Below, in pieces: positions 5,238-58,739 of a stretch of DNA of 64,000 nucleotides. The first letter of the stretch is position 1. Each line of letters begins with the position of its first letter. The notes beneath the pieces were generated by a model. The model was not told where the DNA came from, did no database searches, and saw nothing but the letters and a program-made list of their open reading frames with translations. Origin of the DNA: Polynucleobacter sp. AP-Jannik-300A-C4 (GTDB lineage: Bacteria; Pseudomonadota; Gammaproteobacteria; Burkholderiales; Burkholderiaceae); NCBI RefSeq assembly GCF_018688335.1, contig NZ_CP061316.1, positions 1,364,001-1,428,000 on the forward strand, given 5' to 3'. A program made the position numbers and the translations under genes.

Positions 5238-6479
5238 TTAGCTAAGCAGAGCGCTAAAGGGGATGTACTTCACCATATCGCCAGCATTAAATGTTGCCCC
5301 TGGCGGGCAATCCACTAAACCATCACCCCATGATGCGCTAGTGAGCACACCAGAGCTTTGGTTAGGAAATAGATCTAAACCACCCTGCGCATTGATTTTT
5401 ACGCGCAGGAACTCATTGCGACGATCTCCTTTAAGCCAATCAAAGTCAGCTCGCATTGGGTAAGACTGTGGCATACCCGCATCTCGTCCTTGTAGCTTCA
5501 GAATAAACGGGCGTACAAATAGGAGGAATGTCACAAAACTAGATACTGGGTTACCTGGCAGTCCAATAAACCAGGTTTCACCATCTTTGTTCTTGGTTGA
5601 CTTGCACACAGCACCAAAAGCCAAAGGCTTACCTGGCTTAATGCCAATCTGCCAAAGATCCAATCTACCTTCAGCAGTCACTGCCGGTTTGATGTGATCT
5701 TCTTCACCAACGGATACGCCACCAGAAGTAATTATCAGATCATGATCTTTGCTAGCCTTGCGCAGCGTTTCTTTCGTAGCCTCAAGACTGTCGGGAACGA
5801 TTCCAAAGTCTGTGGCATCGCAGCCCAAGGATTTAATGCATGCTAACAAAGTATCGCGATTGGAGTTGTAGATACCACCCGGTTTGAGCGGTTCACCTGG
5901 AAGAGAAAGCTCATCACCGGTAAAGAATGCAGCCACCCTGACCTTACGCTTCACATTTAAATGGGTTAGGCCAGCAGACGCTGCAACACCCAATTCTTGT
6001 GGACGCAGAAAAGTGCCTGCGCTGAGAGCCGTTTTGCCTGCAGTGAGGTCCTCACCTCTTCGGCGGATCCATTGACCTGATGTTGGTGCAATATTGACCT
6101 GCACTTGATCAGTTGAACCCTCTGGAATAGCGCAATCTTCTTGCATGACAACCGCGTCAGCACTTGGAGGAACTGGGGCACCAGTAAAGATTCTGGCAGC
6201 AGTGCCTGGCTCTAGCTGCGTACCCATAGATCCCGCCGGAATACGTTGCGCAATCTTGAGGGTGCTTCCAGGAGTTTGGGTATCTGCAGTACGCACCGCA
6301 TAACCATCCATGGAGGTGTTATCGAGTGGGGGCACATCTACCAAGCTGTTAACACTTTCAGCAAGTACGCGGCCGAGCGCAGCCTGCATAGCAACTGTCT
6401 CACTCTCACCTACAGCTTTTGCATTTGACAGCAAGTGATCTAAAGCCTGCTGAGCAGTCAACATCGGAGGCTTAGTCAT
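5238..6479 (-). CDS. moeA: Molybdopterin molybdotransferase MoeA (copy 1)
   Basis: 413 residues with MoeA hallmarks: PPLDNTSMDGYAVR (about residues 49-62), the GAPVPPSADAVVMQED loop, TSGGVSVGEEDH and GLPGNPVSSFVTF. It inserts molybdate into adenylated molybdopterin. It is 49 bases upstream of moaD and follows thrC closely. A second, divergent MoeA is encoded at 57408-58739 next to moaA and mobA, so cofactor genes are split over two clusters. Confidence 0.92.
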   Translation of the reverse strand: MTKPPMLTAQQALDHLLSNAKAVGESETVAMQAALGRVLAESVNSLVDVPPLDNTSMDGYAVRTADTQTPGSTLKIAQRIPAGSMGTQLEPGTAARIFTGAPVPPSADAVVMQEDCAIPEGSTDQVQVNIAPTSGQWIRRRGEDLTAGKTALSAGTFLRPQELGVAASAGLTHLNVKRKVRVAAFFTGDELSLPGEPLKPGGIYNSNRDTLLACIKSLGCDATDFGIVPDSLEATKETLRKASKDHDLIITSGGVSVGEEDHIKPAVTAEGRLDLWQIGIKPGKPLAFGAVCKSTKNKDGETWFIGLPGNPVSSFVTFLLFVRPFILKLQGRDAGMPQSYPMRADFDWLKGDRRNEFLRVKINAQGGLDLFPNQSSGVLTSASWGDGLVDCPPGATFNAGDMVKYIPFSALLS

Positions 6480-21649: not shown

Positions 21650-24145
21650 TTAGAAGGGCTCGTACCCACCAGAAGAGTAGCCAACTGATCCCATCGCCAA
21701 GTTATCAAACTTGGTATAAGGGCCCTGCCAACTTAAGCGCACAGTACCAATTGGTCCATTACGCTGCTTACCAATAATGATCTCTGCCATACCTTTATCT
21801 GTCGTCGTGTCTGGGTGATAGACCTCATCACGATAGATAAACATAATTAAGTCGGCATCTTGCTCGATCGCGCCTGACTCTCGTAAGTCTGACATGATTG
21901 GACGCTTGTTCGGGCGTTGCTCAAGACCACGGTTGAGCTGTGATAAAGCAACTACTGGGCACTGTAATTCCTTGGCGAGCGACTTAAGAGAACGAGAGAT
22001 TTCTGAAATCTCTGTTGCACGGTTCTCAGATCCGGATCCACTCATCAACTGTAAGTAATCAATCACCACAAGACCAAGCGTTCCGCCAAAGTTACGAGCA
22101 ATACGACGTGCACGTGCACGCAACTCTAAGCTAGAAAGAGCGCCAGTCTCATCAATCAAAATTTGGGTATTACTTAAACGGGCAATCGCGTCGGTCACAC
22201 GTGGCCACTCATCATCCTGTAATTTACCGGTACGCATACGACCTTGATCTACGCGCCCAACTGAACCCAGCAAACGAGCCGCTAATTGCTCACCCGACAT
22301 CTCCATTGAGAACACCACAACAGGCAAGCCTTCAGCTAATGCAACGTTCTCAGCAATATTGAGCGCAAAAGCGGTGTTATGTGTCACTACGTAATCATTA
22401 GTGACATAGGTTCTATCTGGATGACTAACTGAGATACATTGCGCCTCGGACACTCTAGATGGCTCGATACTCTTAAAGGTAAGTCTGCGCCGGCGATCCC
22501 AAGTTGATCTGAGTCTTTCTTTCTTTTCAGGCAAAGTGAATGCTTGAAATCCAGGGCCAAAACTCATATTTAGCACATAAGATAGGCGCCCCCGCTTCTT
22601 CTCACCTTTATAGGTATAGCTTGTTTGCTTATGAGCGATTGAGCAAAAACCACCCAATGATCTAGCCAAGGATGCAACATCCTCTGACAATTGCTGACTA
22701 GCTGTACAAAAACGAATAGAGCCCCACTTCTCAATCCAGCCATCAGTGTCCATCAGACCTTGAAAGAGTGCGAGGCGAGAGGTCTTATTTGCCTCAAGGT
22801 AAGTAGCGGGGATATATTTATCAAAACTTCTGCAACCAAGAACACCTAAGTCTTGTAGTGCAGCACGGAAATAGTTTGTTGGCACAGATTGACGCTGGCC
22901 ATTGGCAGCAATTCTGGTTTTAGAGACTAATCTCCAGTCATATGCATTTGCATGGACTAACTCCATCTCATAACCGGCTAGTGCATTCATACGCTCAATC
23001 AACTCAGGAGATTTAGTCGAGAACATCACGCTACCGTGAGACAAAGCTAAAGTCCCATCACCGAGTAATGCACCCAAAACCCAAGGATTAATTGGCAGTG
23101 CATTTGAGTGACCAAAATCACCGGAGACAGGATCGATCCACAGACGATTCTTGTATCGCACACAAGAAAGCATTTCCATCAAACGCGCAGTATTAATGAC
23201 TTTAGGCGCATCCCAATCGCGATACATAACACGCCACAGATGCTCATCGCAGCACTCAGCTTCACGACCGTCAGAAAAAGTGACTTTGTAGATCTGTTTA
23301 ATGCCTTGAGGATAAATGCCAGTAACCATCGAATGCTGACCATCCACCGAAGCTAGGCGATCACCGAAACGCAAATCGCCCATCAACTTCCAACCCTCAA
23401 GCGTTTTTACTTTTGCATCTAGCGGCTGCGCCTTACCCATCGACGGTCTGCCAGCAACAATGACTAAGTCACCTTTTTGAAGGCCGCTGGTTTGCTTGTC
23501 TAAATCAATAAAGCCAGTTGCAATACCAGTGATGTCGCTACCGCCTTGACGGTTGTAGAGCTCATCAATACGAGCAACAACAGTTTTGAGTAATGGTTCG
23601 ATTTCGAGGTAATCAGCTTTACGACTACCCTCTTCACCAATTTGTAGAATGCGTGACTCCGCTTCATCCAAAAGCGTTCTTACTGAACGACCTTCTGGAA
23701 CAAATGCAGAGTTCACAATGTTGTCAGAAACTTCAATTAAGCGACGCAGAATACTGCGGTCACGAACAATGTCGGCATAGCCTTTAATGTTCGCTGCACT
23801 TGGAGTGCTTTGCGCTAATGAATTGAGGTAATCAATTCCGACCAAATCACCACCCTGCTCAGACTTAACAGCTTCATGAACAGTGATGACGTCAGCAGGA
23901 TGATTGTCGCCAACTAAACGCTGAATGACCTTATAGATCAGAGCATGTTCAGGACGATAGAAATCTTTATCAGTTAACACGCCACCTAGGCGATCCCAGG
24001 CTGTGTTATCGATCAGTAGACCGCCGAGCAAAGATTGCTCGGCTTCTACAGAATGCGGCGGTACTTTTAAGGCCTGCAAGGCTGCATCCCCAGAACCCAT
24101 CATGCCAGGATTGGACATCAGGGAGCGTGAGCGGGATTCAGCCAT
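21650..24145 (-). CDS. dnaB: Replicative DNA helicase DnaB, interrupted by an intein
   Basis: 831 residues. Without the 352-residue insert the protein would be 479 residues, a normal DnaB. The N-terminal domain (LKVPPHSVEAEQSLLGGLL, from residue 26) and the RecA-like motor are intact. Motor motifs include the Walker A GRPSMGK split at residues 232-238/591, Walker B LGLVVIDYLQLM, and LSQLNRGLEQRPNKRP. The intein (residues 239-590) separates Lys238 from Thr591 of the P-loop, so ATP binding requires splicing. It unwinds DNA at the replication fork. It is the distal gene of the rpsF-priB-rpsR-rplI-dnaB group, 24 bases after rplI. Confidence 0.96.
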   Translation of the reverse strand: MAESRSRSLMSNPGMMGSGDAALQALKVPPHSVEAEQSLLGGLLIDNTAWDRLGGVLTDKDFYRPEHALIYKVIQRLVGDNHPADVITVHEAVKSEQGGDLVGIDYLNSLAQSTPSAANIKGYADIVRDRSILRRLIEVSDNIVNSAFVPEGRSVRTLLDEAESRILQIGEEGSRKADYLEIEPLLKTVVARIDELYNRQGGSDITGIATGFIDLDKQTSGLQKGDLVIVAGRPSMGKAQPLDAKVKTLEGWKLMGDLRFGDRLASVDGQHSMVTGIYPQGIKQIYKVTFSDGREAECCDEHLWRVMYRDWDAPKVINTARLMEMLSCVRYKNRLWIDPVSGDFGHSNALPINPWVLGALLGDGTLALSHGSVMFSTKSPELIERMNALAGYEMELVHANAYDWRLVSKTRIAANGQRQSVPTNYFRAALQDLGVLGCRSFDKYIPATYLEANKTSRLALFQGLMDTDGWIEKWGSIRFCTASQQLSEDVASLARSLGGFCSIAHKQTSYTYKGEKKRGRLSYVLNMSFGPGFQAFTLPEKKERLRSTWDRRRRLTFKSIEPSRVSEAQCISVSHPDRTYVTNDYVVTHNTAFALNIAENVALAEGLPVVVFSMEMSGEQLAARLLGSVGRVDQGRMRTGKLQDDEWPRVTDAIARLSNTQILIDETGALSSLELRARARRIARNFGGTLGLVVIDYLQLMSGSGSENRATEISEISRSLKSLAKELQCPVVALSQLNRGLEQRPNKRPIMSDLRESGAIEQDADLIMFIYRDEVYHPDTTTDKGMAEIIIGKQRNGPIGTVRLSWQGPYTKFDNLAMGSVGYSSGGYEPF
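22376..23431 (-). mobile_element. Class 3 intein with LAGLIDADG homing endonuclease in DnaB
   Basis: Residues 239-590 of the precursor. The first residue is Ala239 rather than Cys/Ser, so class 1 splicing is excluded. The W-C-T signature of class 3 inteins is present: Trp304 in block B (CCDEHLWRV), Cys570 in block F (AQCISVSHPDRTYV) and Thr588 in block G (YVVTHN), with terminal Asn590 and Thr591 as the +1 residue. Between the splicing blocks lie two dodecapeptide motifs, WVLGALLGDGTL (Asp363) and LFQGLMDTDGWI (Asp468), of a two-motif LAGLIDADG endonuclease. The key acidic residues are intact, so homing may still be possible. Confidence 0.9.
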
Positions 24146-56806: not shown

Positions 56807-57420
56807 TGATTACCTCTGAACACATTACTGGACTCATTTTGGCGGGAGGTCGCGCCCAAAGAATGGGTGGCATCGATAAGGGTTTAATTCCCTTTCATGG
56901 CAAGCCTCTAATTGAATCTGCCATTAGTCGACTCAAACCTCAAGTTAGCACCATTCTGATTAATGCCAACCGCAGCATTACCAAGTATGCACACTATAGT
57001 TACCCGGTATTCATGGATGAAACCCCTGACTTCTCCGGCCCCTTAGCTGGTTTTTCAGTGGGTCTCAAGCACTGCAAAACACCTTACCTACTTACATCAC
57101 CCTGCGACTCCCCTTTATTGCCGGACGATCTTGCCCAAAAAATGGCAGACGAACTGGAGAGCAATAATTTAGAGCTCGTCTTTGCTTCTTCAAAGGAAGA
57201 CGATGGCAAGATTTGGTCTCAGCCTGTCTTCTGCTTAATGAAAAGTAGTTTGAAAGACTCTTTAGATTCCTTTTTAAGTAAAGGCGATTTAAAAATTGAT
57301 CGCTGGTTTAAAGAGTTGCAATCTGGCACGGTGGTTTTTGAAAATCCACAAGCGTTTGCCAATGTGAACACACCAGAAGAGTTAGCAGTTTTAGAAAAAA
57401 TATCTTCATGTCAAACTTAA
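56806..57420 (+). CDS. mobA: Molybdenum cofactor guanylyltransferase
   Basis: 204 residues with the nucleotide-binding start GLILAGGRAQRMGGIDKGLI (residues 9-28) and LTSPCDSPLLPDDL. It attaches GMP to Mo-molybdopterin for DMSO-reductase-type enzymes. It overlaps moeA2 by 13 bases. Confidence 0.93.
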   Translation: MITSEHITGLILAGGRAQRMGGIDKGLIPFHGKPLIESAISRLKPQVSTILINANRSITKYAHYSYPVFMDETPDFSGPLAGFSVGLKHCKTPYLLTSPCDSPLLPDDLAQKMADELESNNLELVFASSKEDDGKIWSQPVFCLMKSSLKDSLDSFLSKGDLKIDRWFKELQSGTVVFENPQAFANVNTPEELAVLEKISSCQT

Positions 57421-58739
57421 AGCACATACCCCCAAGCGATCCGATTTATATCAGTGGCTCACTACATGTAGACCAAGCTCGCATAGCGATCTCCGATTTA
57501 GTAAAAGACTTAATCGCAGAATCGCATGAAGGCGCTGAGTCTGGCGCCATTGAATGCATCACATTAGATCAAGCAATCAATCGCATCCTGGCGAAAGATT
57601 TACTTTCACCGATTGATGTTCCAGTTGCAGATAACTCAGCAATGGATGGCTTTGCATTTCATGGGGATTGCTTAGGTCAAAGCGAAGACCTTATTAGCCT
57701 CAAAGTGATCGGTACTGCCTTTGCTGGCAAGCCCTATGAGGACAGTATCGCTCCAGGTGAATGCATCAAGATCATGACAGGCGCCTTAATGCCAGGCGAC
57801 TGCGATACCGTGATTCCCCAGGAGTTTATAGAACCCCACAGTCCTATTGATGACTCGATCGTGTCATTCAAAGCCAATCGAGTGAAGCGTGGTGAAAACC
57901 GACGCTTACGTGGAGAAGACTTACAACAAGGCAAGCCAGCAATTACTGCAGGGCGTTTATTGCGCCCCTCTGATCTCGGTCTTGCTGCCTCTCTTGGCAT
58001 CTCCGAACTTGCAGTTCATAGAAAGTTAAGAGTAGCCATACTCTCTTCAGGCGATGAATTACGTCCATTGGGGCATGCTTTAGAGGCTGGCAATATTTAC
58101 GACAGCAATCGTTATAGCTTGATCGGACTCCTCAAGCGTCTTGACTTAGAAATCATCGATTGCGGAATTGTGCGCGATGATCCTGCCTCACTAAAAGCCG
58201 CCTTCATAGATGCCGCCTCAAAAGCAGATGTCCTCATCTCTTCTGGCGGGGTCTCAGCTGGGGAAGCAGATTTCACCAAGCAGATCATGCAAGAACTCGG
58301 TGATGTAGGTTTTTGGAAAATCGCTATGCGTCCAGGCCGCCCTATGGCTTTTGGGATGCTGAGGCCAGTGGATGGATCTAGCCGTAAAACCCTCTTCTTT
58401 GGTTTACCCGGAAATCCAGTAGCAGTGATGGTGACTTTCTACCAATTTGTCCGTTCCGCTTTATTGCAACTCAATGGCGCAAGCCAGACTGAGCCGCCAA
58501 TCATGCAGGCGATTGCCGAAGCGCCCATTCGTAAGCGCCCGGGCCGAACAGAGTTTCAACGCGCCATTGTGGTGCGTGGCCCAGACGGAAAGCCTACAGT
58601 CACACTAACTGGTAGCCAAGGCGCTGGAATTTTGCGATCCATGAGTGAGGCAAATTGCTTTGTGATTCTGTCTCACGAGCAGGGAAATGTGGCTGCTGGT
58701 GACTGGGTAGATGTGGCGCTTTTCGATGGACTGCTTTAA
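57408..58739 (+). CDS. moeA: Molybdopterin molybdotransferase MoeA (copy 2)
   Basis: 443 residues with VPVADNSAMDGFAF, TGALMPGDCDTVIPQE, SSGGVSAGEADF and FGLPGNPVAVMVTF. It is clearly divergent from the copy at 5238-6479 and about 30 residues longer at the N-terminus. Its overlap with mobA suggests the two act together, perhaps for the bis-MGD form of the cofactor. Confidence 0.93.
   Translation: MSNLKHIPPSDPIYISGSLHVDQARIAISDLVKDLIAESHEGAESGAIECITLDQAINRILAKDLLSPIDVPVADNSAMDGFAFHGDCLGQSEDLISLKVIGTAFAGKPYEDSIAPGECIKIMTGALMPGDCDTVIPQEFIEPHSPIDDSIVSFKANRVKRGENRRLRGEDLQQGKPAITAGRLLRPSDLGLAASLGISELAVHRKLRVAILSSGDELRPLGHALEAGNIYDSNRYSLIGLLKRLDLEIIDCGIVRDDPASLKAAFIDAASKADVLISSGGVSAGEADFTKQIMQELGDVGFWKIAMRPGRPMAFGMLRPVDGSSRKTLFFGLPGNPVAVMVTFYQFVRSALLQLNGASQTEPPIMQAIAEAPIRKRPGRTEFQRAIVVRGPDGKPTVTLTGSQGAGILRSMSEANCFVILSHEQGNVAAGDWVDVALFDGLL

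Follow-up and report, generated by a model that had tools for sequence, protein, structure and literature searches.

A Class 3 Intein with a LAGLIDADG Endonuclease Domain in the P-Loop of Polynucleobacter DnaB, and an Apparent Homing Footprint at Its Insertion Point

Results

The 64,000-nucleotide stretch of contig NZ_CP061316.1 from Polynucleobacter sp. AP-Jannik-300A-C4 analyzed here (the window) carries dnaB, and dnaB in turn carries the intein that is the subject of this report. The gene runs from 24145 to 21650 on the minus strand, the strand of every dnaB and intein feature given below, and its 831-residue product is a chromosomal replicative helicase (NCBIfam TIGR00665, Pfam DnaB N-terminal and DnaB_C domains); it is the single dnaB match in the whole genome. 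Residues 239–590 (22376..23431) form an insert of 352 amino acids that starts with Ala, terminates in VVTHN, and splits the Walker A motif between GRPSMGK, ending at Lys238, and TAFALN, beginning at Thr591. The N-extein (residues 1–238; 23432..24145) holds the DnaB N-terminal domain and, at 23432..23452, the 5′ part of the Walker A motif, which is completed by Thr591 at 22373–22375; Thr591 is the first (+1) residue of the C-extein (residues 591–831, stop codon included; 21650..22375), where the DnaB_C domain lies. The insert is not a chance open reading frame, since the genus also contains empty dnaB genes with frames of about 480 residues, and since the intein has thousands of relatives (at least 4652 at E ≤ 1e-5, in a capped set of 7997 scored candidates).

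Class 3 inteins are defined by a Trp at B:12, a Cys at F:4, and a Thr at G:5, as given in PMC5222942, and the insert has all three. Splicing block B, ECCDEHLW (23234..23257), supplies His B:10 (intein H64) and Trp B:12 (Trp304, intein W66), and has Cys in place of Thr or Asp three residues ahead of the His; block F, CISVSHPDRTYVTND (22394..22438), supplies Cys F:4 (Cys570, C332); and block G, YVVTHN (22376..22393), supplies Thr G:5 (Thr588, T350), the penultimate His (H351), and the terminal Asn590 (N352), followed by Thr+1. C332 and T350 are invariant, and W66 is at least 90% conserved, among 44 aligned relatives. Class 3 inteins can do without Ser, Thr, or Cys at position 1, and no such nucleophile is present, Ala1 being found in this intein and in 128 of 128 intein records (98 distinct); 17 of the 77 genome-contig intein loci, unparsed through a narrow pattern or an incomplete gene, are absent from that set. 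In a tree of 131 columns only, made by a quick search, 56 class 3 rows and 30 class 1 site-a rows part with one change (Shimodaira–Hasegawa-like approximate likelihood ratio test [SH-aLRT] 100), and a class 1 placement is rejected.

An AlphaFold2 model (predicted local distance difference test score 91.5) has a Hint fold and matches both the Mycobacterium smegmatis class 3 DnaB intein and the yeast intein PI-SceI. The endonuclease domain occupies intein residues of about 101–300 (22532..23131, approximate boundaries). Its first LAGLIDADG motif, WVLGALLGDG (intein 117–126; 23054..23083), bears the acid D125, and its second, LFQGLMDTDG (intein 222–231; 22739..22768), the acids D228 and D230; with PF14528 above its own cutoff and the fold, these identify a LAGLIDADG homing endonuclease that is presumed to cut. 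Read from sequence, the insert is confirmed as a class 3 intein with a LAGLIDADG endonuclease at DnaB site b, the name used for the Lys|Thr position of the DnaB P-loop in portions of PMC6195587, and it adds one example to a described class of inteins. An original prediction, made from the letters of this stretch, had placed the insert inside the P-loop between Lys238 and Thr591, assigned it to class 3 from Ala1, the W-C-T residues, and the terminal Asn, called both endonuclease motifs intact, and expected a 479-residue spliced product. Our re-reading of the open reading frame and insert bears out these points, with every named residue position correct and the spliced length agreeing by arithmetic (831 − 352 = 479); the intein tree, proposed as a check, likewise does not place the insert among class 1 inteins.

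Purifying selection acts on the endonuclease. For 29 one-to-one pairs drawn from inteins of equal length, the pooled ratio of nonsynonymous to synonymous substitution rates (dN/dS) is 0.051 for the N-terminal splicing part, 0.069 for the endonuclease, and 0.063 for the C-terminal splicing part, falling to 0.028 in motif block C and 0.010 in block E; the exteins give 0.027 and 0.012.

A dnaB match was obtained in 172 of 186 genomes of the genus, and at least 75 of those carry the intein: by count of rows, 67 have full 831-residue matches, four have partial or shorter intein-bearing matches, and four have a decayed form. Many other genomes of the genus have the empty gene. A sample of the wider family yielded matches at E ≤ 1e-20 in 31 of 299 genomes, in five of 25 genera; Polynucleobacter accounts for 17 of these genomes, and the remaining 14 are spread over four genera. 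Sporadic presence among relatives, a point the original prediction had left to a comparison of dnaB genes, is what we find, occupied and empty loci occurring together in the genus; its description of such elements as uncommon does not hold at these counts. Far from being rare, the element is widespread, and it appears to have been mobile for a long time instead of being a clear newcomer. Within the open-licence PubMed Central literature, we found no paper pairing Polynucleobacter with an intein.

Further comparisons used 68 of the 75 intein-bearing genomes (all but G027, G139, G178, G122, G118, G056, and G149) and 60 empty loci chosen from the rows listed, good assemblies being preferred; the repeated loci L226 and L227 were dropped. 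On an extein tree of these 128 loci, presence of the intein requires at least 35 changes, which equals the lowest value among 200 label shuffles (mean 42.8, minimum 35), and on a tree of the upstream 1.5 kb (120 loci), it requires 38 (shuffles, mean 40.2, range 33–48). Presence is clustered only weakly on the extein tree and is not clustered on the upstream tree, and its link to ancestry is weak; such counts of changes cannot separate gain from loss.

Over 58 loci, the distance between two inteins is correlated with that between their host dnaB genes (r = 0.76), and the pooled dS of the 29 intein pairs is about 0.6, the pairs differing at 1.7% to 28% of bases. The nearest intein to this one is 98% identical, and the closest inteins are mostly in Polynucleobacter records. 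As to donors, no viral match exceeded 42% identity (a pattern-based comparison of the best 80 of 110 viral loci), all 515 phage records fell below 60% (best 39% among the matches listed), and all 38 plasmid records fell below 60% (best 37% among the matches listed); a close phage or plasmid donor is rejected within the searched collections. Recent transfer, which the original prediction had raised, is not demonstrated: the distance correlation, the pooled dS, and the lack of any close relative in the viral, phage, and plasmid collections searched are better explained by a long-standing association, with gain and loss recurring, than by a single recent arrival. At the same 58 loci, neither host topology, extein or upstream, is compatible with the intein data (log-likelihood losses of 1023 and 1057), and the extein and upstream data also reject each other's trees (527 and 343), in an approximately unbiased test of 2000 resamplings, a number that the program flagged as too few. 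The intein tree shares 15 of 55 splits with each host tree, and the host trees share 21 of 55 with each other. Because the host trees also disagree, this incongruence is weak evidence for transfer of the intein.

Statistics around the insertion point were computed on 102 core loci (58 occupied, 44 empty) in which DnaB is ungapped and more than 90% identical, 26 loci of the genus being excluded. Occupied and empty alleles are little differentiated along dnaB and the upstream region, the neighborhood of the insertion point excepted: the fixation index (Fst) is 0.056 and 0.047 in two windows at −54 to +66, and −0.006 to 0.032 in the other 22. A scan of net divergence in windows of 36 base pairs (bp) peaks from −6 to +30 at 0.031, compared with a gene median of 0.0009 and a best value of 0.0097 more than 100 bp away. 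The peak window comprises six bases on the N-extein side (23432..23437) and 30 bases on the C-extein side (22346..22375) of the insertion point; it has a gene-wide permutation p of 0.001, has the same p when the permutation is restricted to label swaps inside 44 matched pairs, and is unmoved among the 85 loci with identical protein sequence at the site. The top single sites are +2 (p 1.1e-8) and +635 (p 6.5e-6), then +5, +6, and +8, these five passing Bonferroni correction over 491 sites, with −27 and +65 near significance (1.3e-4). Divergence between occupied and empty alleles that is largely synonymous and for the most part no farther than about 30 bp from the insertion looks like a homing footprint. 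Separately, the C-extein has a weaker second zone of occupied/empty differentiation at +606 to +666, distant from the insertion.

Discussion

We consider it very probable that the class 3 intein at site b of this dnaB is full-length and probably mobile even now, splices through Cys570, homes into empty dnaB genes, and persists in the genus by an unsynchronized homing cycle. The precursor would be made as one 831-residue chain. To judge from the conserved residues and published class 3 chemistry, Cys570 of block F would attack the Lys238–Ala239 bond directly to form a branched thioester, the N-extein would move to Thr591, Asn590 would then cyclize, and the DnaB thereby released, 479 residues long, would have its Walker A motif whole. 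That unspliced DnaB should be unable to use ATP, as the original prediction held, can be soundly inferred; a P-loop intein in RadA is cited, in portions of PMC6195587, for an unspliced protein that fails to use ATP. The fold, the conserved motifs, and the purifying selection, together with the footprint, suggest that the LAGLIDADG domain cleaves intein-free dnaB genes at the point of insertion and that repair copies the intein in. The distribution in the genus would then reflect an unsynchronized cycle in which the intein is gained repeatedly, is retained while its endonuclease works, at times has that endonuclease decay, and is lost precisely.

Several observations weigh against this account. 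The tracking of host dnaB distances by intein distances indicates that vertical inheritance or joint transfer is common, and because the host trees conflict with each other as well, general recombination explains part of the conflict between intein and host trees. The second strongest single site, +635, lies far from the insertion and passes Bonferroni correction, and the windows +186 to +246 (Fst 0.013) and +606 to +666 (Fst 0.032) also reach p 0.01. Finally, members of the wider family can depart from Ala at position 1: P0031 has Cys there and P0033 has Ser, and in both of these proteins, the site-b intein keeps the class 3 residues.

How the footprint arose can be read in two ways. One possibility, plausible although somewhat short of probable, is that it is mainly target-site resistance: the endonuclease would prefer particular codons around GGT AA.|ACT GCA TTT, so that alleles bearing these would be invaded and those with other, mostly synonymous, codons would stay empty. 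The Thr+1 codon is ACT in 43 of 58 occupied alleles and six of 44 empty ones, the frequencies elsewhere in the same genes being 0.37 and 0.41, and Thr+1 favors resistance because the empty alleles use ACT there less often than the rest of their own genes do. An occupied-type score over six positions reaches 5 or 6 in 31 of the 58 occupied alleles and in none of the 44 empty ones, a descriptive contrast given that the positions were picked post hoc (the site of this genome scores 4 of 6). No empty allele matches any occupied allele across −15 to +21; the mean least mismatches are 4.3 for empty and 1.9 for occupied alleles (leave-one-out), compared with 1.6–2.6 and 1.2–2.2 at six control positions; and diversity among occupied alleles shows no clear reduction at the site (occupied/empty ratios of 0.88 and 0.93, with 0.80–1.12 in other windows). 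Resistance sits less easily with the variation of occupied alleles among themselves (66 distinct 48-bp contexts in 68) and with the 12 of 44 empty core alleles that differ in protein, having Met for Phe at +3, by which the footprint is not wholly synonymous. The excerpted account of haloarchaeal MCM inteins (PMC10643990) describes an endonuclease that cut a target despite several differences, most of them synonymous, and attributes the resistance of most empty sites to a downstream proline; resistance through synonymous codons would depart from that precedent.

The other possibility, to which we give equal weight and which likewise remains on the doubtful side of even, is that the footprint is mainly co-conversion, in which repair copies a short donor flank along with the intein and recombinational loss brings in an empty-type flank. 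For the codons of Ala+2 (GCA) and Gly237 (GGT), the alleles that deviate from gene-wide codon use are the occupied ones, which co-conversion predicts and which counts against resistance at those codons. Matched pairs that are discordant in state differ in excess at the site, with a site/rest difference ratio of 1.87 (44 occupied-empty pairs) versus 1.14 for occupied pairs (29) and 1.29 for empty pairs (22), and the difference between mixed-state and same-state pairs at the site has a p of 1e-7. A small partial correlation also persists between intein distance and flank distance from −24 to +24 (0.19, p 0.005). Larger partial correlations, however, occur elsewhere (0.31 at −498, 0.22 at +222), so that the partial Mantel test across windows did not single out the insertion site, and the signal does not reach far, little of it being left at +30 to +60.

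We advance only tentatively, as something that may well prove wrong, the proposal that dnaB of the genus is split at its Walker A codons into two allele classes at the DNA level, a cuttable class that is occupied and an empty class made immune to homing through largely synonymous codons. If this were so, a selfish element would be influencing which codons an essential active site uses, and a homing endonuclease of long standing would stay active because immunity blocks its fixation. Gogarten and Hilario, in the portion of their article seen here (PMC1654191), asked for finer population studies that separate an asynchronous homing cycle from balancing selection. The genus suits such a study: complete genomes are plentiful, the loci read divide almost evenly between occupied and empty alleles, endonucleases range from conserved to decayed, and the target site shows the 36-bp peak of divergence.

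That the intein is a relic with a dead endonuclease, kept since clean loss is impossible, seems to us quite unlikely. Decay does happen in the genus: both catalytic acids are retained in 63 of the 68 inteins read (62 by pattern, plus L218 with the harmless variant FLGDG), L173 has Asn for Asp in block E, and four (L222–L225) have lost both LAGLIDADG motifs. The four retain Ala1, CC.EHLW, the block F Cys, and THN and so serve as a natural control, showing that decay of the endonuclease need not take the splicing residues with it; three of these decayed inteins compared together give a dN/dS of 0.122 (N-terminal part), 0.237 (middle), and 0.171 (C-terminal part). Against that middle value stand the 0.069 of the endonuclease domain and the 0.010 of block E, and in the present intein, both catalytic motifs are intact; the many empty alleles also tell against this reading. 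The four loci come from G042, G161, G147, and G021, larger genomes of 2.6–3.2 Mb filed in the same genus, and they also hold a second intein, a class 1 mini-intein at site a. It is extremely improbable that the insert instead belongs to intein class 1 or 2 or is a Hint domain that does not splice, an idea that has the shared Hint fold in its favor and nothing further, while position 1 lacks a nucleophile, all three class 3 residues are there, and the tree sets the insert apart from class 1.

Among known systems, the M. smegmatis intein DnaBi1 (class 3, site b, PDB 6bs8) shares the host protein, the P-loop position, Ala1, the W-C-T residues, and the Hint fold; as described in portions of PMC6195587, it is unlike the Polynucleobacter intein in being a mini-intein without an endonuclease and in having DxxH, with Asp, in block B where the latter has CxxH. 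The same portions describe a redox switch between Cys48, which sits outside the splicing blocks, and Cys118, a disulfide to the catalytic Cys being inhibitory. Since DnaBi1 is inhibited in this way, whether the Polynucleobacter intein might respond to redox is a fair question. Its block B contains adjacent cysteines, C60 and C61 (23249–23254), which are kept in 128 of 128 intein records and are possible redox partners of Cys332. The CxxH sequence, too, is present in all 128 records, and it was parsed in 94 of 119 wider loci by a loose pattern. Class 1 inteins have Thr at this Cys position.

Class 3 DnaB-b inteins of Burkholderiales and others (Limnobacter, Burkholderia, Trinickia, Polaromonas) have the same site, motifs, and endonuclease and mostly similar length; at about 48–72% identity to the Polynucleobacter intein, these DnaB-hosted relatives fall outside the genus-level cluster. 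Many DnaB proteins of about 1220–1260 residues, P0027, P0031, and P0033 among them, combine a class 3 intein at site b with a class 1 intein at site a. PI-SceI, the yeast VMA intein, follows the same plan of a Hint splicing domain and a two-motif LAGLIDADG endonuclease; it differs in host protein, is 20% identical, and uses class 1 chemistry. Phage P-loop ATPases (IMG/VR) also carry class 3 inteins with the W-C-T residues, inserted at the Walker A Lys|Thr in most parsed loci; their host proteins are different, and identity is at most 42% among the matches listed. Mycobacteriophage TerL likewise carries a class 3 intein, according to an excerpt of PMC5050341.

In the wider set, of which 119 of 125 loci were parsed by the loose pattern with some rows visibly misparsed, L076–L157 (mostly IMG/VR contigs) are relatives at GK|T of many P-loop NTPases, as if the family specialized in Walker A codons. 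One Clp-type ATPase, P0030 (1452 residues, Pfam Clp_N and AAA), has a class 3 intein in each of its two Walker A motifs, GVGK|A..THN|T (367 residues) and GTGK|A..THN|T (348 residues), with LAGLIDADG motifs apparently intact in both.

Chromosomal dnaB usually neighbors rplI, rpsR, priB, and rpsF, and the open reading frames directly upstream of dnaB here were assigned those four names by eye. Two further open reading frames in the window, at 5238–6479 (minus strand) and 57408–58739 (plus strand), appear by eye to be MoeA-like.
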